64,000 nucleotides of DNA, taken from positions 124,001 to 188,000 of the forward strand of contig JAFGUC010000006.1 of NCBI GenBank assembly GCA_016938695.1, read 5' to 3'. The translations under genes were made by a program, and so were the position numbers. Origin of the DNA: Candidatus Woesearchaeota archaeon. Lineage in GTDB: Archaea; Nanobdellota; Nanobdellia; Woesearchaeales; JAFGUC01. Positions 13,969 to 48,982 of this stretch are shown here, one piece after another. The notes under the pieces are model-generated. The model searched no databases, had not been told where the DNA came from, and saw only the letters and a program-made list of their open reading frames with translations. Each line of letters opens with the position of its first letter. Within the stretch, counting starts at the first letter, position 1.

Positions 13969-14009
13969 AAATAGTAAGTAATAAAAATAAATATCAATTC
14001 TAGGTTATT

Positions 14010-19238: not shown

Positions 19239-20690
19239 TTATTCGGTTATATTATCATATCCATATATGTGATAGTAAGGTATGATGTATTTTAGTGATT
19301 GTCCTTCTTTTAGTCCTTTGTAAGTATAAGTAATTAATCTAGTGAAATAACTTAATTTTTGTTTTTTAATCATCTTGATTATTTTTGGAAGAACTGTAAT
19401 TAAGTATGCTTTAGCATGAAGAAATTCTATTTCTTTAAATGAAATTTGTTTGTTTTCAATTACTGCACCATATTGTAGATTGTCTACATGGTTTGCTCTT
19501 TTTAGGTTTAAAGTTGTGTTTGTTTCCCCAAGAATCTTCATTGATTTTTTGGTGATTGGTTTGTATATGAAGAATGCACTTCTACTAGCATTTAGACGTT
19601 TTGCAAGTTTTATTGTTTTGTTTATCTTGTTTTTATCTTCTGTTGGAGACCCGATAATATAATATAGTGTTTTATTGATTTTTTTAGAATCTAGTAATCT
19701 GTTTATTTTAAGTATTTCTTTGGTACTAATTCTTTTATTGTGAATCTTGTTTCGTACGAAGTCATCTCCAGATTCAATACCCATACGAATTATTTTACAT
19801 CCTGCTTTTGCTAGTAAATCAATTTTTTCTTCATCTAGATTATCTATTCTTGAAAACACACTTATAGGATGCTTTTTTGGATCTAGAAGTTCATTATAAC
19901 GTATTGTAAATCTTTTCAACCAGTTTTTATCTAGAGTAAAAACGGGATCAAAAATTTGGGCTAATTTCATCCCTCTTTTCTTGTATTTATTCCATTGGAA
20001 TGAGATTTCTTCAGCGAACCACTCAGGATCTATCTTTCTGTAATATTTTCCTTTAACGTGGTCTTCTATCTCGCATGCTTCACAAAAAGAACAATTGTAT
20101 GGGCATCCTCTACTTCCAACGAAGTATATCATTTGTAAAAAATACAAGTATTTGTCTAGATCGTCCCATAAATCCCAATCTAAGTGGGGTGTATTTGAAA
20201 GGTCAGTTATAAATTTGCCAGAGTTGTTTTTTATTGTTTTTGATCCGTCTTTTACCCAAAAACCATCAACTTTTTTTGGTAATTTTTTGTTTTTTTCGTA
20301 TTTGTTGAGTATTTCAAGTAAGGTATATTCTCCATCTCCAATAATTATTCCATTGAAGAAACTTTTTTTGATTGCTTCTTCAGGATAGATTGAAGTATAG
20401 TATCCTCCACCAATAATAGGAATATCTGGATATCTTTTTTTAAGAAATAATGATATTTTTGCAACATATTGCATGTATAAGTTGTTGCATGAAAATGCAA
20501 AAATTTTAGGATTTGTATTTTCTATTTTTTTAATTAGATATTCTTTCCAATCTTTTTGATGAAAAGTGGTATCTGCAATAAATGCTCTGTGATTTTTAGA
20601 TTCGTTTATTTTGGTGGCAAGAGTAGTAATTGCGACATCTAATGCGCTGTAATCTGCTTTGAATAGAGCATTTATGAAAAGTATATTCAT
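19239..20690 (-). CDS. Cobalamin-binding-type radical SAM protein (class B)
   Basis: A 483-residue enzyme. The N-terminal B12-binding-like domain has ILFINALF and PIIGGGYYTSIYPEEAI, with IIIGDGEYTLLEIL after it. The radical SAM cluster is C196, C200 and C203 in RGCPYNCSFC, with two more Cys close by (CEAC). RMGIESGDD is the later strand motif. The family includes methyltransferases and oxidoreductases with very diverse substrates. It is transcribed on its own from a TTTAAATGG-like box about 27 bp upstream. A second class B enzyme this close to GT genes suggests modification of a surface glycan, lipid or peptide. Confidence 0.87.
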   Translation of the reverse strand: MNILFINALFKADYSALDVAITTLATKINESKNHRAFIADTTFHQKDWKEYLIKKIENTNPKIFAFSCNNLYMQYVAKISLFLKKRYPDIPIIGGGYYTSIYPEEAIKKSFFNGIIIGDGEYTLLEILNKYEKNKKLPKKVDGFWVKDGSKTIKNNSGKFITDLSNTPHLDWDLWDDLDKYLYFLQMIYFVGSRGCPYNCSFCEACEIEDHVKGKYYRKIDPEWFAEEISFQWNKYKKRGMKLAQIFDPVFTLDKNWLKRFTIRYNELLDPKKHPISVFSRIDNLDEEKIDLLAKAGCKIIRMGIESGDDFVRNKIHNKRISTKEILKINRLLDSKKINKTLYYIIGSPTEDKNKINKTIKLAKRLNASRSAFFIYKPITKKSMKILGETNTTLNLKRANHVDNLQYGAVIENKQISFKEIEFLHAKAYLITVLPKIIKMIKKQKLSYFTRLITYTYKGLKEGQSLKYIIPYYHIYGYDNITE

Positions 20691-20771
20691 TTTTCCAAGA
20701 GTATTAGTTCCATTTAAAAAGTGTTTCGTTTTTTAGAAATTTATTTAAATACTTTATATTTAATTTCACAA

Positions 20772-21833
20772 ATGGAGCTTTTTGTTTATATTCTTCCTTT
20801 TGCTTTGCTACTTGGTTTTTTTACGTCTTATTCTGATATAAAATCTTCAAAAATTAAGAATTATGTTCTTAAGTATTGTTTATTTTTTATAATCTTAATT
20901 AATGTGTTTTTTTTAGCAATAATGAAATTCAATCATTTTAATATGGCTAATGTTCTTCCCTATTATAGAGATTATATCTTAAGTGTTGTTTTTGTGTTCT
21001 TGGTTAGTCTTATTTTGTGGATTTTTGGATTTTGGAATGCTGCAGATTCAAAACTTATAACTGTTTTCGCATTAGCGCTTCCACCGTCGACTGTAGTTTA
21101 TAATTATTCTTCATTATATGGAGTTAATTTTTTTTATAATGTAGTTTTTGTTAATATCATATTTTTCATATTTAGATCGTTAAGGCATTTAAAAACTTTT
21201 GATAAGAAGAAATTAGGTTACTTGCCTAAGTTTTCTTTTTTTAGCTTTTTTAATCTTTTTTTGGTTGTTTTTTCTTTTGGTTTTGTATCACGAATTTTTA
21301 ACTTTATTTCTAATTCCGTCGATAGATTTTATATTAATATTTTATTCATGATTTCTCTTTTTTACTTTTTAAGAAAATTGAAAATTCAAAAGTACATTAT
21401 TTTTATCTTCTTTGGTATTAGTTTATACTTTAATAGAAATGAATTTTTAAATATTATTTTTTGGAAGAATTTATTTGGTATTTTTTTATTCTTAACATTT
21501 ATACGTTTGTTTATGGATTATTTATCTATTTCTAATGTATCTATTGTAAAGATTGACGAATTAAAACCAGGTATGCATTTAGCTCAAGATTTTGTGATTG
21601 ATGGAAAAAAGAAATCAAGATTCTTATCTGATATTATTTCTTATGATCAGTTTAAAGGTTTGTCTTTGGATTCAATATCTGATATACAAAAAATTAAGCA
21701 AGATATTCGTAATGGTGAAATTTTAATATCTCGACGTGATAGTTTTGCACCATTTATTTTTATAGGATATATACTAACTGTTTTGTTGCAATCTAATTTG
21801 TTAACTTTTTTGAGAATTATTTTTAAGTTCTAA
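20772..21833 (+). CDS. A24 (prepilin peptidase-like) membrane protein with altered GxGD motif
   Basis: A 353-residue polytopic protein homologous to archaeal prepilin peptidases and to the gene at 42063. The first catalytic Asp is D22 in YSDIKSSKIKN. The second is D92, but its motif is NAADSK, where GxGD is expected. About eight membrane segments follow, then a cytoplasmic domain (VKIDELKPGMHLAQDF) also present in the 42063 protein, then a last membrane helix. The start at ATG 20772 lies about 27 bp from a TTTAAATA box; an upstream ATG at 20721 is unlikely. Both Asp remain, so activity is possible with a changed specificity. Its location among radical SAM genes invites a role in cutting the His-repeat peptide leaders, but that is a guess. 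Confidence 0.7.
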   Translation: MELFVYILPFALLLGFFTSYSDIKSSKIKNYVLKYCLFFIILINVFFLAIMKFNHFNMANVLPYYRDYILSVVFVFLVSLILWIFGFWNAADSKLITVFALALPPSTVVYNYSSLYGVNFFYNVVFVNIIFFIFRSLRHLKTFDKKKLGYLPKFSFFSFFNLFLVVFSFGFVSRIFNFISNSVDRFYINILFMISLFYFLRKLKIQKYIIFIFFGISLYFNRNEFLNIIFWKNLFGIFLFLTFIRLFMDYLSISNVSIVKIDELKPGMHLAQDFVIDGKKKSRFLSDIISYDQFKGLSLDSISDIQKIKQDIRNGEILISRRDSFAPFIFIGYILTVLLQSNLLTFLRIIFKF

Positions 21834-24054
21834 ATAGGGGTTCTATGATTTTTTTATTTATTGATATTTGTGTTTTTATTTCATTCTTGAAATATATTAT
21901 CTTGGGTTTTTCTTCATTTGTATTTGATATTTGTTTTAATTTTGCATATTTTAAATAATCGAGAAGTTTATTTTTGTTTGGTTTATTATTTATTTTTATG
22001 AATTCAAAGATTGCAGATTCTTCAATTGTTTTGTTTTTGTTTATTTTTTTGTAGTTAAGCATAAAGTTATTGGATTCGAATAGTTTTATTATCTCGTCAG
22101 GTTCTCTAAGTGTATAAAGCATCTCATTTGCTATGGTGTTTAGTAATGAATTGTATTTGGTGTTACAAAGGTGAAATATTCTTATTGTTCCTTTTTCTTT
22201 TAAATTATTGTTTAGAAATTCAAAGTATTTTGTGGGATTTTTAATGCAGTGAAGTAATCCTCTATCAAAAATAAGGTCAGATTTTTCTATAAATATTGTG
22301 TTTTCAATGTTTTGGTTTATGTAATCAATATTATCTAGTTTGTTTTTTTCGGTTGCAATTTTTAGTGCTTCGCTTGAGAAATCAATTCCAATTATTTTAG
22401 ATTTTTTGTTTTCGTTTGCAATTTTTTTTGTAAATTCTCCAGTTGAGCAACCCATATCTATAATTGTTTTTTTGTCTTCAGATATATTTGTGTTTAATAT
22501 TTTCTCATTATTAATGTTCCAGAATAAACTTTCTTCATTTTTTATTGTATATGTGTCCCAGAAAAAAGAGTAATTTTTACTAAAAATTTCTTTGATTTCT
22601 TGAATTATTATTTCTTGTTCTTTGTTTTTTGATTTTTTATTAAAAATTGTGCCTAATGATTTTATTGTTGTTTCTTCTTCAGTATCACTTTTAAATATAT
22701 CAATTAGATTTTGAATATATCTTTCTTTTTTTGAATCATAATATTGATATTTTCCAGGAGCTAAATCTGCATAATCAATTTTTTTTGCTTTTATTATTGG
22801 TTTTAATGTTTTGAAATCTTGTGTTCTTGGAACAGGCACAAAAGGATGTATCTCGAGTCTTGATCCCATTGCGATTGAAAACAAAATACTAAGAATCATA
22901 TCTTCTTTTGTTTGGTGAGGTGTTCCTAGAATGACTTCAATAATTGGTTTTGTTTGTTTTTCAAGTAATTTTTTGAACATTCGTCGTGATTCTGTGAAGT
23001 TATATTCGCTTTTGTTATATTTTTTTATATTTTCTAAATTAATGTCTTCAAATGAAATTCGTAAATCTTTAGTTATTCCTTCTAAATCTTCTATTGTTTC
23101 TTCATTGAGTTTTTTAATATCGAAAAGTAAGCTATATTTAATGTCGATGTTTTGTTTTTTTGTTTCTAAAATTATTTTTTTGAGATGATTTTTGTAGTTT
23201 AAACATATATTTTCATCCATAAAGAAAATATCTTTTATTTTCGGAAATATTTTTTTTGTTTCTTTAATATCATTTAGTATTTTTTCAGGACTGTTAAATC
23301 TTAATTTATTTCCTTCAAGTACGCTAAAACCGCAATATGTGCAGTTATTTGGGCATCCGTGTGAGGAATAGCAAATTAAAGTATCGTAATCTGAATAAAA
23401 CTTTTTAATTATATTTAAATTAGGAAAACTGAATTCATTAATACATAATTTACCCGTCATAACTCTGTCGATTTGAAATTGTCTTAGGCTGTTTGGAGCT
23501 AATGTTACTAATGTTCCACCGACACTAATTTTAGATTGTTTGAATTTTCTCCTTATTATTTTAATGTATTCATTTATTATTTTGTAGTTATATGTGAATG
23601 TTCCTGTTATTAGTATTTCGTCTGGTTCAATTGTTATTTTTTCTAATTCTTTTGGAAATAATTCGTTTTTTTTACCGTGTAAATCGATTATTTCAATATT
23701 TTTATCTAATCCAATAAATTCTGCAAGTCTTGAAGCGGTTCCAGTTATTTCTTTGTATTTGTTTTTTAGGATTTCTGAAATTATAATTATAAGAAAATTC
23801 TTTTTATCTTTGAATTCTAATTTAATGCATTCTGTTTTTATTCTTTGTAGAATCTCATTTTGTTCTTGTGTTTTTTCGATTTTTATATACAATCCTTTAG
23901 GAGTTCTAATATTTTGTAGGAAATTTAAATTTAATATTTTTGTTTCTTTTGGTGTTATAAGTAGTTTTGGTTGAGAAAAAGTAATTGTATCTTGGTTAAT
24001 AATTGCAGTAGCTACTTTTATTTCAAAGTCTGGCTCGTTAGGATTGATTATCAT
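21823..24054 (-). CDS. Class B radical SAM protein fused to a C-terminal methyltransferase
   Basis: A 743-residue enzyme. Residues 1-215 are a divergent cobalamin-binding-like region (KISVGGTLVTLAP). The radical SAM domain has C234, C238 and C241 in HGCPNNCTYC, then FFMDENICL. Residues 520-680 are a class I SAM methyltransferase (TIIDMGCSTGEFTKKIA; IIGIDFSSEAL; LIFDRGLLHCI). The gene begins inside the stop of the tandem radical SAM gene (4-bp overlap), so the two are translated together. Having both radical and polar methylation modules in one chain suggests successive methylations of one substrate. The 3' end overlaps the A24-like gene by 11 bp, convergently. Confidence 0.83.
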   Translation of the reverse strand: MIINPNEPDFEIKVATAIINQDTITFSQPKLLITPKETKILNLNFLQNIRTPKGLYIKIEKTQEQNEILQRIKTECIKLEFKDKKNFLIIIISEILKNKYKEITGTASRLAEFIGLDKNIEIIDLHGKKNELFPKELEKITIEPDEILITGTFTYNYKIINEYIKIIRRKFKQSKISVGGTLVTLAPNSLRQFQIDRVMTGKLCINEFSFPNLNIIKKFYSDYDTLICYSSHGCPNNCTYCGFSVLEGNKLRFNSPEKILNDIKETKKIFPKIKDIFFMDENICLNYKNHLKKIILETKKQNIDIKYSLLFDIKKLNEETIEDLEGITKDLRISFEDINLENIKKYNKSEYNFTESRRMFKKLLEKQTKPIIEVILGTPHQTKEDMILSILFSIAMGSRLEIHPFVPVPRTQDFKTLKPIIKAKKIDYADLAPGKYQYYDSKKERYIQNLIDIFKSDTEEETTIKSLGTIFNKKSKNKEQEIIIQEIKEIFSKNYSFFWDTYTIKNEESLFWNINNEKILNTNISEDKKTIIDMGCSTGEFTKKIANENKKSKIIGIDFSSEALKIATEKNKLDNIDYINQNIENTIFIEKSDLIFDRGLLHCIKNPTKYFEFLNNNLKEKGTIRIFHLCNTKYNSLLNTIANEMLYTLREPDEIIKLFESNNFMLNYKKINKNKTIEESAIFEFIKINNKPNKNKLLDYLKYAKLKQISNTNEEKPKIIYFKNEIKTQISINKKIIEPLFRT

Positions 24055-25721
24055 TTTATATTTTCTGGTCTTGCGAAAGGGTCCAATTCTGCAATATTTC
24101 CTTTATTTTTTAGTGCTGAAAATCTACATCCACCGAGGCATTGTGATAGAAGGTAGCACACCTTACATTCATTTGGAATTAATATTCCATTTTTTGTGTT
24201 TGAAAAAATAGGTGAGTTTGTTATTTCTTTGAAGTTGTTTTCATTTAATTTCGTGTTTGGTTCATTAATTGAATAACAGTATTTTAGTTCTCCGTTTGGA
24301 TTCAGAACTATTGTATTTCCAATTCCACACGTCCAGAATCCGTTACTGATATCTTTTAAAATTTCAGGTTTGTAAAAGCAAAATGGTAGTGCGGTAATGT
24401 GGATTTTGTATTTTGACGATGTATTATGTATATGTATTTTATCAATTAGATTTTCAAGTTCTTTGAAGTTGATTGAATTTTTTGTGTTTGGATTGTCAAT
24501 TGGTCTAAGATATGTTATTTCAGATTTGCAATCTTGTGATAACTGTTCATATATTTCAAAATTATTAATTGTTTCATGATTTGTTATGACATTGATAATT
24601 TTTCTTGGTTTATTTAGATTTGTTAGAATTTTTTTGATTTGTTTTGTTTCAGAATTAATTTTGTGGATTGAAATCATGATTTGATCAACATTGTTATTAA
24701 TAAATTCAATATCATTTTCTTCTAATTTTAGTCCATTAGTATTAAGTAAAACTTTTAATTGTAATTCTTTGGCGTACTCAATTAAATCCCAAATATCTTT
24801 TCTAATGGTTGGTTCTCCACCAGTGAACCTTATTGTTTGAATGTCGTTGTTTTTTAGGATTTTTATGTTTGTTTTGATTTCATCTGTTGTTAATTCATTC
24901 TGTGTCTGTTTACTGTTTTTATTCATACAAAATTCACAATTTAAATTACAATCATATGTTATTTCTAGTTTAGCTTCTATTGGTTTTAATGGAATGTTTT
25001 TTATTTGATTAATTATTAAATCATTTTTATGTGCGAAAAGTCCGTCACAATTATCGAGATTTTCACATAGTTGACAAATTGTTTTATCTGTGTTCTCTTT
25101 TATGTCATAACTACTACCATCATATTTTTTTGTATTATCATTAAATAATACTTTAATGCATTCTGGAATGTTTGCTGTGTGTAAAATTAATTCTTGATTT
25201 TTGATTTGATTGATTTTCTCGTAGAATTCTACATAATTAATATATTCAGAATAGTTGTTAAGTTCGTTAGTATTTTCTGGGAAAAAAAACTCAAATATAA
25301 ACTCTTTAATTATTGGAATAAAATAATTTATTATTTTTGGAATATTTGTTGTTTTTCTAATTTGAATTAAAATTTTGGTTTTATTTTTAATTTTGTTTAG
25401 TAGATTTATGTTTATATTTTGTTGTATGAATGGTTCTGCTTTAATTATGATTTCTGTACTGATTTCATCAATGACTTTTGTTTTGTCTGAATCTTGTAAA
25501 AATGATCCGTTTGTTATTATTACTACTTCTTTTTTTGTTAGTTGATTTGTTATGCTTTTTAATTTATTTATGTCAAGAGTAGGCTCTCCTCCAAAAATAA
25601 TTATTCTGTTTTCTTTTATTTTGTTTATTATATTTGAGCTAGAATCTTCTAGATTATATTTTCTATAACAATTACTGCAATTTAGATTACATTCATTTGA
25701 AAGTTTGATATATTGTTTCAT
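24051..25721 (-). CDS. Tandem double radical SAM protein with C-terminal SPASM
   Basis: A 556-residue protein with two complete radical SAM units. Unit 1 (residues 1-230) has C11, C15 and C18 (CNLNCSNC), GGEPT at 44-48, and an auxiliary set C188, C216, C219 and C225 (C-x2-C-x5-C). Unit 2 (250-556) has C258, C262 and C265 (CNLNCEFC), GGEPT at 301-305, and a SPASM-type set C448, C465, C482, C519, C522, C528 and C532. Up to four Fe-S clusters are predicted. SPASM enzymes commonly modify peptides. The gene is divergent from the His-repeat peptide genes and shares a symmetric TATA element with them, which makes those peptides the obvious candidate substrates. Confidence 0.88.
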   Translation of the reverse strand: MKQYIKLSNECNLNCSNCYRKYNLEDSSSNIINKIKENRIIIFGGEPTLDINKLKSITNQLTKKEVVIITNGSFLQDSDKTKVIDEISTEIIIKAEPFIQQNININLLNKIKNKTKILIQIRKTTNIPKIINYFIPIIKEFIFEFFFPENTNELNNYSEYINYVEFYEKINQIKNQELILHTANIPECIKVLFNDNTKKYDGSSYDIKENTDKTICQLCENLDNCDGLFAHKNDLIINQIKNIPLKPIEAKLEITYDCNLNCEFCMNKNSKQTQNELTTDEIKTNIKILKNNDIQTIRFTGGEPTIRKDIWDLIEYAKELQLKVLLNTNGLKLEENDIEFINNNVDQIMISIHKINSETKQIKKILTNLNKPRKIINVITNHETINNFEIYEQLSQDCKSEITYLRPIDNPNTKNSINFKELENLIDKIHIHNTSSKYKIHITALPFCFYKPEILKDISNGFWTCGIGNTIVLNPNGELKYCYSINEPNTKLNENNFKEITNSPIFSNTKNGILIPNECKVCYLLSQCLGGCRFSALKNKGNIAELDPFARPENIK

Positions 25722-25751
25722 TTTTCACTTATTAGTAGTTCTTACAACAAG

Positions 25752-25770
25752 ATAAGTTTTATAAACTTAT
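25752..25770. promoter_or_regulatory. Symmetric TATA element between the double radical SAM gene and the His-repeat genes
   Basis: ATAAGTTT-TAT-AAACTTAT is a perfect 8-bp inverted repeat with a 3-nt spacer that embeds a TTTATAAA-like core. It lies 28 bp before the peptide ATG (25798) and 31 bp from the start of the divergent gene (25721). It could be one TBP site used in both directions or a repressor site overlapping the TATA box. AGGTG before the peptide ATG serves as the ribosome site. Confidence 0.6.
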
Positions 25771-25797
25771 AATATTTCTTTTTTATTAGGTGTTTAT

Positions 25798-26196
25798 ATG
25801 GTTTTCCCAAAGTTCAAGCGCAAAGTTGCTGATTATTTAGGTTCTGAAGATGGATTTGTGGTAAGCAAAAAAATGCTTGCTTTAGGTTCCGTTGTTTTAT
25901 CGGGTAGCATTGCTTTATTGGGAAAAGAAGTTGCAGCACATTCTACGCATTGTAGTGGTTCAGTTAATGAATTTGGTTATAGTTGTAGTAATGATGGTTT
26001 AGCTGGTGTATTGACTCATAGTACGCATGGTAGTCATGGTAGTCATGGTAGTCATGGTTCACATACCACACATAACACTCATTCAAATCATAGTACGCAC
26101 GGTAGTCATGCAAGTCATGGCAGTCATTCAAATTCACATGTAAATCATTGTACTCATGCAACACATTCATCGCATGGTACTCATAGTAGTTATTAA
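25798..26196 (+). CDS. His-Xaa-Ser/Thr repeat peptide 1 (HxsA-like, predicted radical SAM substrate)
   Basis: A 132-residue precursor. Residues 1-22 are a basic block (FPKFKRKVADYLGSEDGFV), 25-42 are hydrophobic, and KEVAA-H at 43-48 looks like a signal-peptidase site. Residues 48-73 carry HSTHC and YSCS. From H74 to H129 there is a His every third residue (H-small-Ser/Thr), with one register slip between H110 and H114. There are 21 His and three Cys in all. The chain ends in Tyr. Triplet His repeats next to radical SAM genes define bacterial HxsA. Alternatives are a simple metal-binding protein, but the neighbours argue against it. The start has AGGTG five bases upstream. It is 5 bp from the second peptide gene. 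Confidence 0.82.
   Translation: MVFPKFKRKVADYLGSEDGFVVSKKMLALGSVVLSGSIALLGKEVAAHSTHCSGSVNEFGYSCSNDGLAGVLTHSTHGSHGSHGSHGSHTTHNTHSNHSTHGSHASHGSHSNSHVNHCTHATHSSHGTHSSY
26017..26184 (+). repeat. 9-bp codon repeat encoding His-Xaa-Ser/Thr (peptide 1)
   Basis: Nineteen imperfect copies of a CAT-GGT-AGT-like 9-mer, with the third and first codons varying among Gly, Ser, Ala, Thr, Asn, Val and Cys. The longest near-identical run is about 26027-26060. It is coding repeat, expanded at protein level, not a CRISPR array. Confidence 0.85.
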
Positions 26197-26201
26197 CGAA
26201 A

Positions 26202-26642
26202 ATGTTTCCGAAATTAAAGAAAAAGATAGGGGATTATTTAAGTAATGAAGATGGCAGTGTTTTGAGATCTTCGACATTGAAGATTGCTGCGGTTGTAGTT
26301 CCTTCTGCTGTAATTTTATCTCAGTTATCATATGCAGCACATACTAATAATTTATTGGCAAAGTATGCTTCTGTAAATGGTGGAGTTGTAGGTTCAATAC
26401 ACAGTTCTCACGGAACTCACGGAACTCACAGTTCTCATGGAACTCACTCTAGTCATAATACTCATGCAAGTCATGGAAGTCATGCAACGCATTCTAGCCA
26501 TTCTAGTCATGGAAGCCATTGTACTCACAGTACTCACAGTACTCATAGTACTCATGGAACTCATGGTAGTCATGGTAGTCATTCAACGCATTCGTCACAT
26601 AGTACGCATGGTAGTCATGGTTCTCATTCTGACGGTTATTAG
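26202..26642 (+). CDS. His-Xaa-Ser/Thr repeat peptide 2 (HxsA-like, predicted radical SAM substrate)
   Basis: A 146-residue paralogue of the preceding gene. The leader repeats the same plan: FPKLKKKIGDYLSNEDGSV (2-20), a hydrophobic stretch 25-44, then YAA-H at 44-47. A spacer (48-66) precedes 26 His residues in an unbroken period of three from H67 to H142, each followed by a small residue and Ser or Thr. One Cys (C107) falls in the Xaa position. The chain ends SDGY, so both peptides finish in Tyr. With all His on one face of a three-fold helix, a modified or metal-loaded rod is conceivable. Co-transcribed with peptide 1. Confidence 0.82.
   Translation: MFPKLKKKIGDYLSNEDGSVLRSSTLKIAAVVVPSAVILSQLSYAAHTNNLLAKYASVNGGVVGSIHSSHGTHGTHSSHGTHSSHNTHASHGSHATHSSHSSHGSHCTHSTHSTHSTHGTHGSHGSHSTHSSHSTHGSHGSHSDGY
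26400..26627 (+). repeat. 9-bp codon repeat encoding His-Xaa-Ser/Thr (peptide 2)
   Basis: Twenty-six contiguous 9-bp units with CAT or CAC as the invariant first codon and AGT, ACT or TCT-like third codons. Synonymous codons vary between units, so the amino-acid pattern is held more strictly than the DNA, which suggests selection on the protein. Confidence 0.85.
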
Positions 26643-26692
26643 TTTAATACAAAGATTTTTATAGTTCTATTTTTTTTGTGGTTTTGGTAGGC

Positions 26693-28486
26693 ATGGATGT
26701 GTATATACAGTTAACAAGGGATTGTAATCATGATTGTATTTTTTGTTCTGCTCCTAAAGATGATTTATATCTCTCGTATGAGGATATCATTTCTAGAATT
26801 GATAAATTTAGTACACAAGGTGTGGGAAAAACTCCTTCAGGCGATTTTGTTTTAACTGGTGGTGAACCAACAAAACATCCTGATTTACTGAAAATTTTTT
26901 CATATTTATCTGAACGAAATTTGTATTTTCGGGTTATTACTAATGGTGTAAATCTTAAAGATCCTGTGTTTGTAAAACAAATGTATGATGCTGGTTTACG
27001 TAGGATTTACATTTCAGTTCATCATTTTGATCCAAAAGAGTCTATGGAAATATCTTCTGCAGATTATCCTGATTTGATTGATACTCTAAAAGGAATAGAT
27101 AATGTAACAAAATATTCTGATGTTGATGTTTGTATTAATACTACAATTATTCGACAGAATTACAAGGTTTTGTTAGATATTGCAAAGCAGTTTGTTCCTA
27201 AATATGAAAACGTTCGAGCATTTACTTTTAATTTTGTTGATATTTGTGGAAATATTGTAAATGGAAAAAATTCTGCAGAATCAATTGTTCCTAAGTATAG
27301 TGAATGTGAGAAGTATTTGTACGATGTTTTTCGATATTTAATTAAACATCGAATTGTTTTTAGATTTGAACGTTCTCCATTATGTTATGCTCGAGGTTTT
27401 GAGGAATATTCTAGTGATGCAAATAGAAATGTAGGTGCAGAATTTTATTATACAACATTTACTGATTCTAAACAAAAAGATACTAATTATAATCTATATG
27501 GTTTTGTTAAGTCTAGTGATTGTATGTTGTGTTCTTTGAATAGTATTTGTTCAGGAATTTCTGGTCGTTATGCTGAAATTTATGGACTTAGTGAGTTATA
27601 TCCTGTTTTTGATGATGCTTCTCAAATAGAGATGAAAATTAAACTTCAAAATAATTATAAGGAAAAATTATTTATCAATAAAATTGATTCTCTAAATTAT
27701 ACTGATTTGAAACAAACTTTATTGAATGGTTTTAATAACCTTGATGGATTTTCAAGATTAATCAAACCAAAACGGAAAGTCCTTTTGAAGTTTGATGTAG
27801 GAGGAAGTTCTGTTAATTTTGCTCTTTTGAAAAATTTGATAGAATCTTTACAATCCAATGAAAATGAAGTTGTTGTTTGTGATGGTTTAATTGATTGCGA
27901 TTCAAATAAATCTATATCTTCTTTTGATAATTCTGGATTAAAAGAATTTTGTGATAAAATGAATGTTAGTTGTGTTAATTTGTTATCGTATGGTTATCAT
28001 AAAATTACGATTAAAAATCCTTTACTTTCAAGTTCAGTTGAAGTTAGTGATGTTGTCGATACGGTTGACTTTATAATTAATGTTTCACAATTGAGAAAAC
28101 ACGATATGACTAATCTACATTGTGCAATTTCTAATATTTTTGGTTTAGTTTCATCAAAGACATGTAATGACTTAAATTTATTGCAGGACAAGAAATCTTA
28201 TAATTCTTTGATTGTTGATATTTATTCTTATTTTAAATCAAAAATTAGTTTGAATATTCTTGATGCGACAACATTACATGATTCAAAAGATTTTGCGTTG
28301 AATAATATATTATCAAATTTTATTATATTGTCTCGTGATGGCTTGGCAGTTGATACTGTTGCATCTTATATTGTTTTAAGAGATATTTTATCACTTCCAA
28401 CAAATGTGCTTGCAGAAAAAAAGAATTTAGGATTTTTAGATTTAGAAAGAGTTAATTTTTTTGGTAATACTTTAGATGATTTTTAA
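26693..28486 (+). CDS. Radical SAM-DUF362 fusion protein
   Basis: A 597-residue fusion. Residues 1-300 are a radical SAM domain with C11, C15 and C18 (CNHDCIFC), GGEPT at 56-60, and the auxiliary set C231, C277, C280 and C286. Residues about 350-595 match DUF362: KRKVLLKFDVGGSS, VVDTVDFIINVSQLRKHDMT, AISNIFGLVSSKTCND, ILDATT and ILSRDGLAVDTVAS. DUF362 proteins often carry Fe-S clusters and are of unclear function. The start is ATG 26693, about 35 bp from a TTTTTATAG box; a GTG at 26678 is less likely. It lies directly after the His-repeat peptides and is the first enzyme gene of the cluster. Confidence 0.85.
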   Translation: MDVYIQLTRDCNHDCIFCSAPKDDLYLSYEDIISRIDKFSTQGVGKTPSGDFVLTGGEPTKHPDLLKIFSYLSERNLYFRVITNGVNLKDPVFVKQMYDAGLRRIYISVHHFDPKESMEISSADYPDLIDTLKGIDNVTKYSDVDVCINTTIIRQNYKVLLDIAKQFVPKYENVRAFTFNFVDICGNIVNGKNSAESIVPKYSECEKYLYDVFRYLIKHRIVFRFERSPLCYARGFEEYSSDANRNVGAEFYYTTFTDSKQKDTNYNLYGFVKSSDCMLCSLNSICSGISGRYAEIYGLSELYPVFDDASQIEMKIKLQNNYKEKLFINKIDSLNYTDLKQTLLNGFNNLDGFSRLIKPKRKVLLKFDVGGSSVNFALLKNLIESLQSNENEVVVCDGLIDCDSNKSISSFDNSGLKEFCDKMNVSCVNLLSYGYHKITIKNPLLSSSVEVSDVVDTVDFIINVSQLRKHDMTNLHCAISNIFGLVSSKTCNDLNLLQDKKSYNSLIVDIYSYFKSKISLNILDATTLHDSKDFALNNILSNFIILSRDGLAVDTVASYIVLRDILSLPTNVLAEKKNLGFLDLERVNFFGNTLDDF

Positions 28487-28509
28487 GTTATGGAATAAAT
28501 GGTGTTTAT

Positions 28510-29370
28510 ATGGTGATAGAAGGATATTTTCACATAAAATTGAATAATAATTGTAACTGCAATTGTAATTTTTGTGCAGATTCTCAATCTATTAAGACTA
28601 TTGCACCGCCTTCATTTGAATCAATTAAAAAAAAAATAGATATTGGTTTCGAAAAGGGTTTTAGACAATTAATCATAACCGGTGGTGAACCGACTATATC
28701 TGAATATTTACTAGAAACAATTAGATATGCTAAGTTAGTTGGTTTTAGTTATATACAATTAGTGAGTAACGCTCGAATGTTATCTAATCCTGTTTTTTTG
28801 AATCAAGTTATTGAATCTGGTGTGACTAAATTTCAGATTTCTTATTTTGCTCACGATGCAAAATTGTACGATTCTATTACTAAGGTCCCTGGTAGTTATA
28901 AGCAATTGACAACTGCTTTATTGTTATTAAAAGCAAGATCTTGTGAAATTTCGTTTAATTCGGTGATAACTCGTCAAAACTATAAATTTTTGTTAGAAAT
29001 GTATCTACAAATGCTTGCTTTTAATTCAGTTACAATACAATTTTCATTTTTGAACCCAATTGGAAATGCTGCTCAAGACTTTGATGAGATTGTTCCAAAA
29101 TATACTGAGGTGGCTGGACCTCTTCAAGAGGTTATACGTCTTAATAAGGTAATAAATCCAGATTTAGTTCAAATTGAAAATATTCCTTTTTGTTTTATTG
29201 ATGAAAAGTATCATTACTTGATAACTGATTTACGATGTCCTAAGTCTGAATTGGGTTTAAGAAGGTTAAATAAGACTAAAGACTTAGATATTTGTGTTGG
29301 TTGTAAGTATTATGATTTTTGTTCAGGAATTTGGAAGAAATATGTTGAAGTTCGTGGTACTGATTTTTAA
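28510..29370 (+). CDS. Radical SAM protein with auxiliary cluster motif, HxsC-like candidate
   Basis: A 286-residue radical SAM enzyme with C15, C19 and C22 (within CNCNCNFC, which adds C17), GGEPT at 58-62, a NSVITRQNYKFL segment, and a C-terminal auxiliary set C228, C262, C265 and C271 followed by W-K-K-Y-V-E. The layout and sequence resemble the N-terminal half of the gene before it and the gene at 31844, so these are paralogues. The ribosome site and start (GGTGTTTATATGG) are the same as in peptide gene 1. It likely acts on the His-repeat peptides or assists the SPASM maturase. The HxsC label is tentative. Confidence 0.82.
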   Translation: MVIEGYFHIKLNNNCNCNCNFCADSQSIKTIAPPSFESIKKKIDIGFEKGFRQLIITGGEPTISEYLLETIRYAKLVGFSYIQLVSNARMLSNPVFLNQVIESGVTKFQISYFAHDAKLYDSITKVPGSYKQLTTALLLLKARSCEISFNSVITRQNYKFLLEMYLQMLAFNSVTIQFSFLNPIGNAAQDFDEIVPKYTEVAGPLQEVIRLNKVINPDLVQIENIPFCFIDEKYHYLITDLRCPKSELGLRRLNKTKDLDICVGCKYYDFCSGIWKKYVEVRGTDF

Positions 29371-29383
29371 ATAAAGCAAAAAC

Positions 29384-29392
29384 ATTTAAATA
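29384..29392 (+). promoter_or_regulatory. TATA box ahead of the HxsD-like genes
   Basis: ATTTAAATA lies about 37 bp before ATG 29425, with a run of six G (29413-29418) as ribosome site. It indicates that the HxsD-HxsB-radical SAM group can be transcribed separately from the peptide genes. Confidence 0.5.
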
Positions 29393-29424
29393 AAATACAA
29401 ATAATTTTTAATGGGGGGATTTAT

Positions 29425-30156
29425 ATGGAAACTCTTACTGAGGAAGTGTTAAAACCAGTTTTAGAAAAGTTAAATTTTGTTACTCTTGGTGTAGGTTTTG
29501 CGAAGATTTCTTTGCGATTTGAATTATACGATTTAGAATCAATTTATTCAGCAGCGTACTCGATGTTTGATAAAGCAAGTTTCTTTTTTGATGGAGATTC
29601 ACAAAAAGCAATTGTATATATTTTTGCAAAAAAACCACAAGATTTGTACAGTTGTGTTCTTGAATTTAATAATCATTTGATTAATTATTCATATTATAAA
29701 ATTCGTTCATCCGAGAATAAAAAATTGAAAGAATTTATTTTATCAAAATCTTTGTTTGGTATTCCAACTGAAGAATCTGTTTCTCAACCACAAGAACCAT
29801 GTGATTGTGAAATTCAAAATTGTGATGAAGATGTTTTTTCCCAGCAACCATCTGTTGATGATGTAAATCTTGATGATTTTGAGGTTGAAGATTTGGATAG
29901 TATTAGAGTACCTTGGGAAGATAAAAATGATGCAGATTTATTGGAATCTGAGCGTGAAAAGTTAGATGAACTTTTTAAGGAAGAACCTTCAAAATCTGAA
30001 CAAGGTAAAAAACCAGTACAATCTGAACAGACAGATGATGGTTCAGATGATTTTTCTATACCTTGGTCTGAAGAAGATATTGAATTATCAGAATCAGACT
30101 TAGCAGAATTGAAAAAACTCTATGATGATGAATCTTTTGTTGGAGATGAAAAATGA
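29425..30156 (+). CDS. HxsD-like protein with acidic C-terminal extension
   Basis: A 243-residue protein. Residues 28-113 resemble bacterial HxsD: a YDLESIYSAAYSMFDKASFF segment, a strand pair (KAIVYIFAKK), then EFNNHLINYSYYKI in the position of the HxsD LLNDYxLRE-type motif, and a final helix (EFILSKSLFG). Residues 115-243 are unlike HxsD: strongly acidic and disordered, with two related blocks around IRVPWEDKNDADLLESE and FSIPWSEEDIELSESD. HxsD accompanies HxsB and HxsC but has no proven role; a substrate-binding adaptor is plausible. The acidic tail could bind the His-rich peptide or a metal. It overlaps the next gene by ATGA. Confidence 0.68.
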   Translation: METLTEEVLKPVLEKLNFVTLGVGFAKISLRFELYDLESIYSAAYSMFDKASFFFDGDSQKAIVYIFAKKPQDLYSCVLEFNNHLINYSYYKIRSSENKKLKEFILSKSLFGIPTEESVSQPQEPCDCEIQNCDEDVFSQQPSVDDVNLDDFEVEDLDSIRVPWEDKNDADLLESEREKLDELFKEEPSKSEQGKKPVQSEQTDDGSDDFSIPWSEEDIELSESDLAELKKLYDDESFVGDEK

Positions 30157-30413
30157 AAATAACTGAACAGCGTTTAAATTTGGATTTTGATTCTGGAGTT
30201 GCGCATGTCGAGTTTAATAAACTTTTTTATGAGAAATCTTTAATTTTAGAGGTTTGTTCAGAGTTTTTAGAAATCTTTTATTTCGTATTTGATGAATCAG
30301 CAGATTATTTTTCTCTTAGTTTGGTCGATAGAAAAAAAGGAGATTTTAAGGAAGCAGTTTATGAATTTTTCAATTACTTAGTTGGAGTTCAAGTTTCTTT
30401 GATAAAATCATAG
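30153..30413 (+). CDS. Second HxsD-like small protein
   Basis: An 86-residue protein with the same secondary-structure plan as the HxsD region before it: FNKLFYEKSLILEVCSEF, a strand pair, then AVYEFFNYLVGVQ in place of the LLNDY-type motif. It lacks the acidic tail and the last helix. No signal peptide is present. It overlaps the preceding gene (ATGA) and is 10 bp from the HxsB-like gene. A heterodimer with the first HxsD-like protein is possible. The family link is weaker than for the neighbour. Confidence 0.55.
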   Translation: MKITEQRLNLDFDSGVAHVEFNKLFYEKSLILEVCSEFLEIFYFVFDESADYFSLSLVDRKKGDFKEAVYEFFNYLVGVQVSLIKS

Positions 30414-30423
30414 GTGATTTAGA

Positions 30424-31878
30424 ATGTCTAATTTTGATTATAAAGTAGTACCTTACAAAATAAAGAGATATGATGATAAATTTTTGGTCATTAGTGATTT
30501 TGGTCAGTGGATAGTTTTAAATTCTGAAGATTATAAGAAGTTCAAATTTAAAAATTTGGATCATGAACTTTATTCAAAATTAGAGAACTCTGGAATTATT
30601 ATAACTCCAGGAAATGAAGCAAATCTATTTACTTCATTGACAAATTACAAATGGAATATTTCTAAAGGTCCAACTTTACATATTTTGGTACCAACTTTAA
30701 GGTGTAATCAAACTTGCAAGTATTGTTATGCTTTACGAGTAAAAGAAGATTTACAAGGTTATGACATGACTGAAGAAACTGCAAAGCAAACAGTTGATTT
30801 TATTTTTAGTACACCTTCTCCAATATACTCTATTGAGTTTACTGGTGGTGAACCTTTGTTACGTTTTGATATTGTTAAGTATGTTGTTGATTATGCAACT
30901 GAATTGGCAAAAAAATATTCTAAGAGTGTTGTTTTTTCAATTGTTACTAATGGTTTGTTGTTTGATGATGAGAAAATTCAGTATTTTTATGATAATAAAG
31001 TCGGTCTCTGTTTATCGTTAGATGGACCAAAAGAATTGCACGATTATCATAGAATGAAAAATTTACCAGGTATGCCTGGAACATATGATGATGTAATTAA
31101 GATTATTTCACATTTACGTGATATTAAATATCCTAGTGTAAATGCATTACCTGTTATTACTAAAAAATCTTTAAGTTATTGGAAAGAATTAGTTGATGAG
31201 TATGTTCGATTTAATTTCCAAGCTCTACGTTTTAAGTACATAGGTTTTTTTGGGTTTGCAACAGGTAATTGGAAAGAATTAGGTTATACTCCTGAAGAAT
31301 TTTTAGAAATCTGGAAACAAGTTATTGATTATATGATTGATTTAAATGCGAAAGGTATTGTTATTTCAGAACAACTAGCAACGATTATGCTTAAGAAAAT
31401 TTTAAATTTTGAGAATCCTGGTTATTCTGAATTAGATTTTCCTTGTGGCGCAGTAATTGGTCAGTTGTTGTATAATTATGATGGAAAGATTTATACTTGT
31501 GATGAATCACGAACGCATGAAGAGTTTGCAATAGGTCACGTTTCTACATCAAAATTATCTGAGTTGTTAAATCATGACGTTACAAAAACAATGATTTCAG
31601 TATCAAATAATTTGTCGTTTGGTTGTGATTTATGTCCTTACTATCCTTATTGTGGAGTTTGTCCATTAGAGAATTATAAATCTGAAGGAACATTCATGGT
31701 TAATATGCCTTCTAATTATAGATGTAAGATGCATAAGGGTATGTTTGATTATATTTTTGATAGATGTATACATAGCGAGAAGCATTTGAAATATTTCAAA
31801 GAATGGGTCGGATATCGAGATAATCAACTTTCAACTAAAGGTTGTGATTGGTCGGGTATGGAAATTGGAAAGAATTGA
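30424..31878 (+). CDS. hxsB: HxsB-like radical SAM/SPASM maturase
   Basis: A 484-residue enzyme. The N-terminal 80 residues (YKIKRYDDKFLVISDFGQW) match the HxsB-type preamble. The cluster motif is C94, C98 and C101 within PTLHILVPTLRCNQTCKYC, GGEP is at 141-144, and the SPASM domain has C341, C359, C401, C404, C410, C413 and C434. The CGAVIGQLLYNYDGKIYTCDE segment is strikingly like bacterial HxsB. SPASM maturases install thioether, ether or C-C crosslinks or epimerise residues in peptides; what HxsB does to HxS repeats is not known. A GGTGATT ribosome site precedes ATG 30424. It overlaps the next gene by 35 bp. Confidence 0.8.
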   Translation: MSNFDYKVVPYKIKRYDDKFLVISDFGQWIVLNSEDYKKFKFKNLDHELYSKLENSGIIITPGNEANLFTSLTNYKWNISKGPTLHILVPTLRCNQTCKYCYALRVKEDLQGYDMTEETAKQTVDFIFSTPSPIYSIEFTGGEPLLRFDIVKYVVDYATELAKKYSKSVVFSIVTNGLLFDDEKIQYFYDNKVGLCLSLDGPKELHDYHRMKNLPGMPGTYDDVIKIISHLRDIKYPSVNALPVITKKSLSYWKELVDEYVRFNFQALRFKYIGFFGFATGNWKELGYTPEEFLEIWKQVIDYMIDLNAKGIVISEQLATIMLKKILNFENPGYSELDFPCGAVIGQLLYNYDGKIYTCDESRTHEEFAIGHVSTSKLSELLNHDVTKTMISVSNNLSFGCDLCPYYPYCGVCPLENYKSEGTFMVNMPSNYRCKMHKGMFDYIFDRCIHSEKHLKYFKEWVGYRDNQLSTKGCDWSGMEIGKN

Positions 31879-32878
31879 TATTAAAACCGGTTATTTGTGT
31901 AATAATAATTGTTTGTTTTGTGTTCAAGCCCATAATAAAAAATATGGCAATCGAACTTTTGATCAGTTGACTAAAGTCTTGGATGATGCATATAAAGATG
32001 GAGTTAGAGGTGTTGTTTTTACAGGAGGAGAGTTTACATTACGTTCTGATTGTATTAAGCTTATTAAGTATGCTCATGATTTGGGGTTTGATTTAATTCA
32101 ATTACAATCTAATGGTCGTTCTTTTTCAAGTGAGAAATTTGTTGATGCTTGTATTGCAGCAGGTGCAAATGAATTTTCTCCGGCTTTACACGGTTATACT
32201 GCAGAGATTCATGATTATCTTACTCGTGCTAATGGTGCGTGGTCTCAAACTGTTAAAGGAATACAAAATATTGTGAAACGTGGTTATAATACTATTGTTA
32301 ATTCAGTTGTTGTTAAACCAAACTATAGATATGTTCCTGAATTGGCAAAATTATTTGTCAAGTTAGATGTTGATCAGTTTCAATTTGCTTTTGTCCATGC
32401 AGTTGGTAATGCGATGTTGTATTATGACAAAATGATTCCGTTTGTTTCTTTGGTTTCACCTTATGTGAAAAAAGGATTACAAATTGGTCTTGATAATAAT
32501 AAGCGAGTTATGGCAGAAGCAATGCCTTATTGTGTTATGCAAGGGTATGAAAGGTATGTTTCTGAATTATATATTCCTCAGACAAGAATTTCAGAAGGAA
32601 ATGAATTAAGACTTGATTTTGAAACAATTAGAAAGACTCAAGGAAAAACTTTATTTCCACAATGTTTAGAATGTGCATTTAGTCAGATTTGTGAGGGTCC
32701 TTGGTTAGAATATCCTCAACAAAGGGGTTCGTCTGAGTTTAAACCTGTGCCTGGAAAGAAAATTTTATCAACACAAGAGATATTAGATGATTATATTAGG
32801 TTTCCAGAAAATCCTTTTAAAGCATTTGGTCCTGATGTTTTTAGAAATGATTTCCGTATTCGTAGAGGTGGAATATGA
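31844..32878 (+). CDS. Radical SAM protein with auxiliary cluster motif, HxsC-like candidate
   Basis: A 344-residue radical SAM enzyme with C19, C23 and C26 (CNNNCLFC), GGEFT at 61-65 (Phe replaces the usual Pro), NSVVVKPNYRYV, and an auxiliary set C230, C274, C277 and C283 followed by P-W-L-E-Y. It is a paralogue of the 28510 enzyme. The frame opens at GTG 31844; TTG 31865 would give MERIDIKTGYLC, which aligns better with its paralogues, so the true start may be there. It overlaps the HxsB-like gene and ends in an ATGA overlap with a membrane protein. Bacterial cassettes pair HxsB with HxsC, which fits the order here. Confidence 0.8.
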   Translation: MIGRVWKLERIDIKTGYLCNNNCLFCVQAHNKKYGNRTFDQLTKVLDDAYKDGVRGVVFTGGEFTLRSDCIKLIKYAHDLGFDLIQLQSNGRSFSSEKFVDACIAAGANEFSPALHGYTAEIHDYLTRANGAWSQTVKGIQNIVKRGYNTIVNSVVVKPNYRYVPELAKLFVKLDVDQFQFAFVHAVGNAMLYYDKMIPFVSLVSPYVKKGLQIGLDNNKRVMAEAMPYCVMQGYERYVSELYIPQTRISEGNELRLDFETIRKTQGKTLFPQCLECAFSQICEGPWLEYPQQRGSSEFKPVPGKKILSTQEILDDYIRFPENPFKAFGPDVFRNDFRIRRGGI

Positions 32879-35403: not shown

Positions 35404-38400
35404 ATGTTTTTGAGAAAGCTTTTTGCAACATTGTCAATATTTTTTGTACTTTTGTTTGGTTTGAGTTATTTTGCTTATTCTTTGACGTTTTCTTATGAAA
35501 TTTCTGTTGGTGGTTCTACTGCAATTACTCCTCGAGGTGGAATGGCTGCTAAGTTGGGTTCTTCTGCTACTTATGATGCGTGGGGTAATTTAAAAATTGG
35601 TTCTTCAACAGATCCTTATACTTGTTCTCAAGGAACATTATTAACTAAATGGACTTTTGATGACGATCGTTATGGAAATCCTGCAGCAGTTACTTGTTAT
35701 GCTTCAAATGGAGATATTTGCACTTCGTCCGGTTCATATGTAATTGACCATGACACGTATAGTGATTCTTGTACTGCTTGTGGTTATTATTATAATGCTG
35801 GAGTGGGAGATTGTACTCCACCTAGTTGTACAACACAATGTTGTGGTGATGATGCAGGGGAATTGTATCGAACACAACATGGTCATGGAAATAACAATGT
35901 GCAATATGGTAATATTGCTTGGACTAATGTAGTGGTTGATGCTTGTTGTAACGCAGGAGATAATATTGATTATACTGGTGCTTGTGTACAGTCATATACT
36001 GCGGCAGGTTCTGGAGTTGCAGTTTTAACAGGATATTCTGGTGCAGATAAATATTCTGCTTCATATTATAATTCAGATCCTTCACACGGATGGTTGGAAT
36101 GTGACTATTATGCAAATAATTATTGTAGAAATATTTGTGGTGGTGCAACTTTTGTTTTAGCTGGAGAGGCTGTTGGTGAGTACAGCCCTGGTGCAGTTAA
36201 TGACAACGGTGGTAGAACTGATATGGGTTCTAATACCTTCGGTTATGCTGAATGTTGTGGTGATGATGATGGTGAAATATATATAGATGATTCTGCAATT
36301 ACTGGAGCAGGTTTTGCTTGTTGCAATAATGCAAATGATTGTGTTGATGATACTGCTGGTGGGTTAGTTTGTGTTTCTAGTGATAATGGTGCTTTATCTT
36401 ATAGTGATGATTTACAATATTATTGTACTAGTGGAAATTGGCTTTCTGTAGATGATTCTCAAAGCTTGTGTGAAGTTAGTTTTGTTTGGTTTGCTGATAA
36501 GGATGGTTTTACTGGTGGCGATGAAAATTGTTGTGGTGATGATACTACAAATGATGATTTTGGACGTATTACTTTTGCATCTGATTCTTGTGATATTTGT
36601 CTAGATGGTTCTCCTAGTTCTGATAGTCCTTGTTATGCTTCTGGAACTTTAGAACAAGGTTTAACAGATAGTGCAGATTTGTGCTATTATGATTCTGTTA
36701 ACTTAGATGCTTCTAGATTGAATGATTGTCTTTCATCAGGTTGTTTGGTTGATACAAATCAATTTAGTTCTGTTATTGCAGGAGTTCAAACAGATTGTGT
36801 TTATGGTGACCCTGCTTTAGGTGATCAGTATTGTTTGACAGACGATAATGTTGTTGCGGTTGATACGACTTATGATTATTGTCATTATGGTATAACTTGT
36901 GCTGTAGCAGGAATTTCTGGTTGGTATGCTGATGTTGAGAATTGTCGTGATACTAATTATGATAATTCTGATGTAGCTTTAAATTATCAATGCTGGTATG
37001 AACAATTTGGAACTCTTCAAAATGATAGGAGTGATGATTGTGAGGATACCGGTTGCATTAACGTGGATGTTTGTACTGTTGGTTTAGGACAAATTTGTGC
37101 ACTTGAACCAAGTGCTACAACAACAGGTTGTATTGTTACGCAATCAGAATGTAATTTGGATTGTATGGCTTTAGGATATAATAATGGAACTGTTGTTGAT
37201 ATTCATACATGTAATTGTGGTATTTCTAATTTTACTACTTTTGCGAGTTCGACTGCTTTGGTTCCATTAGAGTCTAACGATACTGTTCAGTTTAACGCTA
37301 CTGCAATTAATATGGATAAAAGGTTGGATTATGAAGGTCAACCAGTCGATCTTGATATTTGTCAGAATGCTGCATGTGGTTCACTTCTTTATACTTCTTA
37401 TACCGAACCAGATCTACCAGGAAACCAAGAGAAAGTTTCTTTTAGTGAGAACATTCCTTTTTGTGATTATCGTGGTGCAGGAGTGTTCTTCTTTACAAGG
37501 ATTACTGATAGTGTTGGAAAAAGCCATACTCAAATATCTAGTGATGTTTATAATGTGAGAAAAACAGATTCTTGTCTTTGTTCTGACGATATTGAATGTT
37601 TTTCCAATTATCAACTTAATGGTGGTTGTGATTCTGATGATGGTTGGTGTTATACTTGTGTAAATGATACTGATTCAATTGATACAAAATGTGAATTTGA
37701 TGATTCTTGTGGTTCTGCTTTAACTTGTGATGAATTGGATCCTTTTTCTTGTGTTCCTTATGTTGGTTGGTGTAATGGAACGAATGGTTGTGGTTCAAAT
37801 CCTAATGTAATATGTTCGGACGAGATTGTAGTTGATTCTGGAACAAGTACTGATATTTGCTTAATAAAAAGAAATGAGTCAACTGCGCATTGTGGTTGTA
37901 TTGATAATGTTGATGAAGGAAAATCCTGTGATAATGATTTTGATGGCAGTACTATGGGTGGTACTGAAGGAATTTGTATTGATTCTGAATGTGTTGAGAG
38001 TTTAGCTGTTCAAATCAATGTTGGCAATTTATCTGGATTGGGTGCTGAATATGATCCAATTTGTGATTTTAATGACGGTAAGCCGTGCGTTAATGATGTC
38101 TCTTTTGAATATGTTCGTGATGGAACTTGTGCAGCAACAGATATTGGTGCAACTTCTTTTGAATGTGATGTTACTGGACATGTTGCGTTTAATGGTGTTA
38201 ATTATTTTAATGGTTGTTCTCTTGTTGCTGATGGAACTGGTTGTGATTCTAATGCTTCAAGAACAGGAACAAATGATTTGTATAATAGAAATGGAATTTG
38301 CACTGGCGGAGTTTGTTGTGAAGCTGGTTATGTGGATGTGAATAATAATACCTTGTATGATGACCCTGGTGCATGTGGAAGTTTTGGTGAATTAGTTGAG

Positions 38401-42027: not shown

Positions 42028-42062
42028 TTAGGTTTAAATAGATATTTTTTTTCTTTTATTAT

Positions 42063-48446: not shown

Positions 48447-48450
48447 TTGA

Positions 48451-48981: not shown

Positions 48982-48982
48982 G

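Follow-up and report, generated by a model that had tools for sequence, protein, structure and literature searches.

The bacterial His-Xaa-Ser system comprises HxsA, HxsB, HxsC and HxsD (TIGR03979, TIGR03978, TIGR03977 and TIGR03976; Haft and Basu, as cited in PMC9062424). A literature search for "His-Xaa-Ser" found no product structure or function; subscription papers and outside preprints lie beyond that search. Among the triceptides, HaaB and YhhB link a His at position i to a residue at i+2 (His C2 to Cβ), and MscB links Phe to the Cβ of Ser (PMC11002830).

Here we analyse a stretch of 64,000 nucleotides from a Candidatus Woesearchaeota archaeon (contig JAFGUC010000006.1; the window hereafter), which belongs to a genome of 1.5 Mb in 85 contigs. 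A preliminary description had proposed that it carries a radical S-adenosylmethionine (SAM) peptide-modification cluster of Hxs type, and this identification holds in a DPANN archaeon: HxsB scores in full and co-occurs with the other genes in relatives. The two peptides, HxsB, two HxsD-type proteins, HxsC-like enzymes, DUF362 fusion and divergent tandem radical SAM gene are all found, every open reading frame (ORF) named is present and intact at its position, and the cluster reaches left to 20721, past the limits first drawn for it. We read the locus as a cluster for a ribosomally synthesized and post-translationally modified peptide (RiPP) of the Hxs kind, in which HxsB, HxsC and HxsD proteins modify a His repeat, a prepilin-type aspartyl peptidase of family A24 then cuts after EE(G/A), and a Sec signal and signal peptidase lead to release or display. 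We give this reading a probability of about 0.6. Its basis is gene content, family matches, co-occurrence, intact catalytic motifs and leader conservation, from which we infer the order of steps, the cut site, the crosslink chemistry, the export and the use of the product. The Hxs kind is known; new is an Hxs system with an A24 peptidase and a Sec signal, found across DPANN archaea and bacteria, of which the window holds a branch that uses Thr. Four things go beyond the preliminary description: the A24 peptidase characteristic of this type, the two-part leader and signal, the Thr repeat variant and a second Hxs locus.

Core genes of the cluster

The genes on which the argument rests are listed here, with lengths in amino acids (aa) and family cut-offs in brackets.

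20721..21833, plus strand: Hxs-associated A24 (prepilin-type) aspartyl peptidase, 370 aa; PF01478 29.0 bits (gathering cut-off 26.5), both catalytic-Asp motifs, Hxs-specific clade (100/100), co-occurrence with HxsB
25798..26196, plus strand: precursor peptide A, HxsA3-type, 132 aa; HxsA3 NF038309 44.9 bits (65), leader family
25798..25854, plus strand: predicted leader of peptide A, with putative removal at SEDG↓F; G or A here in 64/64 aligned leaders
26017..26190, plus strand: His-Xaa-(Ser/Thr) repeat of peptide A; His run 13, shuffles at most 7
26202..26642, plus strand: precursor peptide B, HxsA3/HxsA4-type, 146 aa; HxsA4 NF038313 53.7 bits (55), HxsA3 43.2 bits
26202..26255, plus strand: predicted leader of peptide B, with putative removal at NEDG↓S; G or A here in 64/64 aligned leaders
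26400..26630, plus strand: His-Xaa-(Ser/Thr) repeat of peptide B; His run 26, shuffles at most 10
29425..30156, plus strand: HxsD with an acidic tail; TIGR03976 39.1 bits (50), E 7.4e-10
30153..30413, plus strand: HxsD-like small partner; NF038315 28.9 bits (41)
30424..31878, plus strand: HxsB maturase with RRE-like (RiPP recognition element) N-terminal domain, radical SAM and SPASM; TIGR03978 416.6 bits (370), 1.2e-124
31844..32878, plus strand: HxsC-like radical SAM partner of HxsB; HxsC4 NF038332 139.9 bits (500), HxsC TIGR03977 89 bits (267.9)

Precursor peptides and their repeats

The His runs in the list are consecutive residues at exact third positions, set against the maximum reached in 20,000 shuffles of each peptide core. 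A strict His-every-third repeat had been described for both peptides; that is so for peptide B, whereas the repeat of peptide A is interrupted (HSNSHVNH). Codons for Ser, Thr and Gly differ along the repeat, which argues against a recent tandem expansion of the DNA. The 27 archaeal peptides tested all match HxsA3 and have the common leader, with the two window peptides falling below the curated HxsA3 and HxsA4 cut-offs. We rejected these peptides as Flp or type IV pilins, since a Pfam search of the 27 returned no pilin family.

The third position of the repeat unit (X3) sets the window's branch apart. In the peptides of the window's HxsB group together with that of genome G158, X3 is Thr in 110 units and Ser in 76, while the remaining 59 peptides have Ser in 466 units and Thr in 2 of about 550. 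In the window's own repeats Thr takes about half of the X3 positions. The G158 peptide taken by itself has Thr in 41/42 units. X2 is small (Gly, Ser or Ala), which would suit tight three-residue rings, and His-Xaa-Ser/Thr would by analogy fit the geometry of the triceptides, with an aromatic residue at i and a Cβ at i+2. The likeliest chemistry would join each His imidazole to the Cβ of the Ser or Thr two residues on, to give a chain of three-residue rings.

His-rich peptides bind metals, and an HxNxLx(I/L)...HxH core is retained even in precursors that have no long repeats. The repeats might thus be an unmodified or lightly modified domain for Cu, Ni or Zn, with HxsB and its partners altering only the HxNxLxI...GTHxH core or oxidising Ser/Thr in the manner of AnSME, which is among the closest folds to HxsB. 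We regard this as unlikely: the exact three-residue His spacing, the Ser or Thr at X3 with other residues rare, and the hundreds of units exceed what metal binding needs, and several radical SAM enzymes lie alongside.

Some precursors depart from the simple plan. Four peptide ORFs (L106, L125, L100 and L091) carry the leader and a repeat of HxS or Ser/Thr type, followed in the same protein by a C-terminal domain of ~300 aa (CPFxxxWNGxxYxxENNxLPxSE) that has no convincing Pfam match; the repeats can therefore belong to a large secreted protein. Another HxS precursor (L118:6850-7422) ends in an intramolecular chaperone of endosialidase (Peptidase_S74), as is typical of tail fibres.

The modifying enzymes

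The HxsB proposed for 30424-31878 is borne out by a TIGR03978 score above the cut-off. Its structural model (mean predicted local distance difference test, pLDDT, 87.6) consists of an N-terminal domain, a radical SAM barrel and SPASM, and the model secondary structure of residues 11-75 is a bbb-aaa winged helix of the RRE type with pLDDT about 90. The closest solved structures are CteB, then AnSME, and also TigE; the match to CteB runs over 469 alignment columns, nearly the whole chain. The CX3CX2C motifs read from the sequence are intact in the radical SAM genes of the cluster. In two loci (L225:6066-7331 and L226:6402-7625), otherwise normal A24-HxsD-HxsD-like operons include HxsB-like proteins of about 410-420 aa scoring 214-228 bits, which may be reduced or changed maturases.

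The HxsD proposed for 29425-30156 fares less clearly, as TIGR03976 is its sole NCBIfam match but stays below the cut-off. The HxsD model has pLDDT mostly above 90 over residues 11-110. We considered HxsD as an RRE and rejected it, because its model shows another kind of small a/b fold, with topology a-b-b-a-b-b-a-a, for which a PDB search gave no match at E<=0.001. An HxsD tail motif, DDPxGIAxPWEEKYG with the common part DPxGIAxPWEEK, is conserved in most loci of archaea and bacteria, myxobacteria included; the window HxsD carries two degenerate copies of the PWE motif. This tail is possibly a docking peptide.

HxsC4 and HxsC are the best-scoring families of 31844-32878, under both cut-offs; this gene adjoins HxsB and is 57-61% identical to the HxsC adjoining HxsB in G079 and G175. 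HxsC as an obligatory partner is rejected, as an HxsC-like gene lies beside only about 11/37 HxsB genes in a sample of 371 genomes of the phylum, of which 36 have HxsB and 335 do not.

A dedicated A24 peptidase

A recurrent membrane protein of ~370 aa in these loci is an A24 peptidase. The two copies of the window's genome score 29.0 and 30.1 bits with PF01478 and retain the catalytic Asp pair in the motifs SYxDIKxxKIxN and W.AGDxK (columns D39 and D109); no NCBIfam model matched in a search of the A24. In the phylum sample the Hxs-type A24 profile matches 41 genomes, 32/36 with HxsB against 9/335 without (Fisher 1e-33, counting each genome as independent with kinship uncorrected), and the 32 genomes carrying both mostly have A24 and HxsB in one operon, within ~5 kb of each other in 26 of them. 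In the window, two divergent radical SAM genes split the A24 gene from the remaining cluster.

The general A24 of pilus systems is ruled out as the Hxs protease by both tree and gene counts. A single branch with 100/100 support separates the Hxs type from the general type. A PF01478 search of 16 genomes found one A24 of ~290 aa in each and, in most, an additional longer copy for each Hxs locus; a single A24 is all that the four HxsB-less genomes have, and likewise G091, where HxsB has no linked A24. In G081 the Hxs-type A24 scores under the PF01478 threshold.

Genomes with the A24 and a missing or displaced HxsB are of several kinds. G183, G204 and G118 carry a divergent or truncated HxsB. In G014 (L183) the A24 gene adjoins an HxsA3-type peptide gene and HxsB is not there, and in G026 (L184) there is an A24-HxsD-peptide group with HxsB elsewhere. 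G104 and G174 have neither HxsB nor a peptide close to the A24. In G127 (L233) the A24 adjoins an ORF of HTNCTHNSETGTA-type repeats. That ORF (L233:7404-7898, minus strand) and L234, both beside an Hxs-type A24, carry a HTNCTHNSETGTA repeat with a period of ~ten, rich in Cys and His, and may represent another type of substrate for this pathway.

Leader, predicted cut site and probable export signal

The leader consensus of 64 aligned peptides (3 further peptides outside the pattern were excluded) is P-K-I-K-K-K-I-x-x-F-L-x-x-E-(E/D)-(G/A)-K-I-S-K-x-x-L-L-K-x-G-helix-AxA. The residue ahead of the presumed A24 cut is Gly in 60 and Ala in 4, a tally that gives the ratio of Gly to Ala and is no independent test, since the pattern that located the cut requires G or A. 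Past this position comes a segment that looks like a Sec signal peptide, with a Lys-rich n-region, an h-region and AxA.

Bacteria offer a comparison of leader types. The Hxs-type A24 is found in 10/12 bacterial genomes with EEG-plus-helix leaders, with a partial match in one more, and in 0/6 bacterial genomes whose leaders have no helix or are Tat-like. Where myxobacterial precursors lack the helix, TERRIS, DQREIS, TERGIS or EQRDIS occupies the cut position, and in two myxobacterial HxS precursors (L112, L132) the leader passes into a Tat-like RRDF or RRDL signal instead of the EEG-helix type. We conclude that the dedicated membrane A24, carried by nearly all relatives, probably cuts off the peptide leader. 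The A24 might instead act on some other protein encoded there, secreted or prepilin-like, as Cys-rich single-pass membrane proteins recur downstream of the peptide gene. The A24 gene that adjoins a peptide gene in G014, and the coincidence in bacteria of leader type with A24 presence, speak against such a substrate, and we find it quite improbable.

Our reading can then be set out from precursor to product. The precursor has three parts: the leader PKIKKKIxxFLxxEEG, a Sec-type segment made of KISKxxLLKxG, a hydrophobic helix and AxA, and the His-Xaa-(Ser/Thr) core. HxsB, acting through its RRE-like domain and with HxsD, HxsD-like and HxsC-like proteins, would modify the repeat in the cytoplasm. 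The membrane A24 would then cut past EE(G/A), taking the leader off and leaving a normal Sec signal, and signal peptidase would cut at AxA, so that the modified His-rich product would reach the outside, either released or on display.

Several observations weigh against this reading. HxsB scores higher with the thioether maturases PapB and CteB than with cyclophane formers, so homology alone cannot tell the chemistry. Thr at X3 crowds a Cβ bond. The HxsB genomes G069, G091 and G319 show no A24 match. A tree-aware test of leader type against A24 presence on the HxsB tree rests on just 4 changes and does not reach significance, which makes the link suggestive and not a proof. Type IV prepilins are hydrophobic immediately past the cut, and KISK..K would be an unusual A24 site. 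A second conserved Gly at +11, directly before the helix in 54/64 leaders, could be the real cut site.

Cleavage at that second Gly (LKxG↓hydrophobic) in the same Hxs cluster would leave the helix in place, to anchor the peptide in the membrane or form the core of a filament, with the His repeats on the surface, perhaps in a pilus-like structure. The arrangement of charge, Gly and helix does resemble archaeal class III signals, and at 42-56 kb of the window there is a pilus cluster that has a separate A24. That A24 falls in a different clade, however, the first Gly/Ala is kept more strictly than the second and is gone in leaders of A24-less systems, and most leaders end by eye in AxA before the His core, a sign that the helix is removed. 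We think cleavage at the second Gly has a small chance of being right.

A stronger form of our reading is one we hold tentatively, a little short of even odds. The A24 would be a new class of RiPP leader protease that cuts EE(G/A)↓KISK only after modification and so unmasks the Sec signal, such that maturation licenses export; this unit would extend from DPANN archaea into several phyla of bacteria, and in the branch of the window it would make His-Xaa-Thr chains of three-residue rings.

Distribution and the second locus

HxsB occurs nearly always, among the 36 genomes that have it in the phylum, in the taxonomic order of the window. A separate scan of GTDB genomes found it in the archaeal groups Woesearchaeota, Aenigmatarchaeota, Diapherotrites, Nanohaloarchaea, Altiarchaeota and Fermentimicrarchaeum, and in the bacterial groups Patescibacteria, Omnitrophota, Elusimicrobia, Spirochaetes, Aminicenantes and Myxococcota/Bdellovibrionota. 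The commonest archaeal gene order is A24, HxsD, HxsD-like, HxsB, peptide.

The preliminary description expected the repeat peptides and enzymes to co-occur in related genomes, and the same gene set does recur. It also called the archaeal version undescribed, which holds only in part: NCBIfam already has models for HxsA3 (matched by every archaeal peptide tested), HxsA4, HxsC4 and HxsD-like, and HxsB is widespread in DPANN and in several bacterial phyla. Features that it singled out recur elsewhere. The HxsD and HxsD-like pair is usual in archaeal and in many bacterial loci. Tandem peptides and extra radical SAM genes recur in G079, at a distance of 17 kb from HxsB, as two tandem peptides next to a tandem radical SAM gene. 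The DUF362 fusion has a counterpart in G158 (L229), whose window-like set includes A24, a radical SAM-DUF362 protein (38% identity over 579 columns to 26678-28486), HxsC (58%), one more radical SAM protein and a peptide. The HxsB of the window clusters in the tree with G079 and G175 (98 in the Shimodaira-Hasegawa approximate likelihood ratio test), and more loosely with L071, L138 and G026.

The same genome has a second Hxs locus on contig C7 (L006:10163-14855), which groups a peptide, HxsD, HxsB, HxsC-like and A24. Its peptide has the common leader and few HxS units, and an overlapping frame (13638-13979) may encode a small HxsD-like partner, with no NCBIfam match. The two HxsB copies are in different clades, which argues against a recent duplication.

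Accessory genes and neighbourhood

The cluster has four further enzyme genes.

21823..24054, minus strand: radical SAM and class I methyltransferase fusion with a weak B12-binding match; Pfam Radical_SAM, Methyltransf_31
24051..25721, minus strand: tandem (double) radical SAM protein, divergent from the peptides; two CX3CX2C motifs, PF04055
26678..28486, plus strand: HxsC-like radical SAM domain fused to DUF362; PF04055, C-terminal PF04015 4e-22
28510..29370, plus strand: HxsC-like radical SAM protein; top NCBIfam match HxsC4 NF038332, 117 bits (500)

The product of 21823-24054 is a probable accessory tailoring enzyme, and a relative of it lies immediately upstream of A24-HxsD-HxsB in L043. 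Other radical SAM genes nearby in the window are 15548-16909, 19239-20690 and 9136-10707 (minus strand). Two of the three are of the B12-binding type, and 9136-10707, with methyltransferase and radical SAM parts, reads as an HxsC relative. Further right, 42063-55881 is an archaeal type IV/Tad-like pilus cluster with a general A24, pilin-like proteins, an ATPase and membrane platform proteins; the pilus region also encodes very large Cys-rich and immunoglobulin-like surface proteins (35404-47944). A defence system was considered and rejected, as PADLOC returned only generic viperin-like radical SAM matches. A sigma-70 promoter scan, with a model not designed for archaea, showed no excess.

Implications and comparison with known systems

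The analysis yields a protease whose cut site is predicted, a leader and signal in two parts, and a natural switch of substrate from Ser to Thr that is tied to an HxsB clade. It also gives a minimal unit of five genes (A24, HxsD, HxsD-like, HxsB and peptide) suited to co-expression. If the A24 cuts the leader, prepilin-type processing would be linked with peptide modification in archaea and bacteria, and the RiPP leader proteases, whose 2023 review (PMC10885120) makes no mention of prepilin, aspartyl or A24, would gain a further family. Our literature search, with the same scope as above, found nothing that combines a prepilin peptidase, radical SAM and a precursor peptide.

The closest known system is bacterial Hxs, with which the locus shares HxsB above cut-off and, clustered with it, HxsD, an HxsC-like enzyme and a His-every-third precursor. 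The locus differs in its dedicated A24, in its leader followed by a Sec signal, in having Thr or Ser at X3 and not just Ser, and in its extra radical SAM, DUF362 and methyltransferase genes, while HxsC is often absent in relatives. The NCBIfam models HxsA3, HxsA4, HxsC4 and HxsD-like match the peptides and small partners under their cut-offs, and none covers the A24. Triceptide systems (HaaB, YhhB, MscB) share a SPASM radical SAM enzyme and the pairing of an aromatic residue at i with a partner at i+2, a pattern that His-Xaa-Ser matches exactly; HxsB is outside those enzyme families, the repeats here are far longer, and we know of no triceptide with Thr at X3. The ranthipeptide and SCIFF (six cysteines in forty-five residues) maturases PapB and CteB are closest to HxsB in sequence and fold, with RRE, radical SAM and SPASM, but require Cys donors, whereas most Hxs repeats have few Cys or none. 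Type IV and Flp prepilin processing, finally, shares the A24 family, the catalytic Asp pair, Gly or Ala before the presumed cut and a hydrophobic helix after it; the differences are that the substrate here would be a modified His-repeat peptide with the motif EEG↓KISK, and that the Hxs-type A24 forms a clade apart from the pilus A24.

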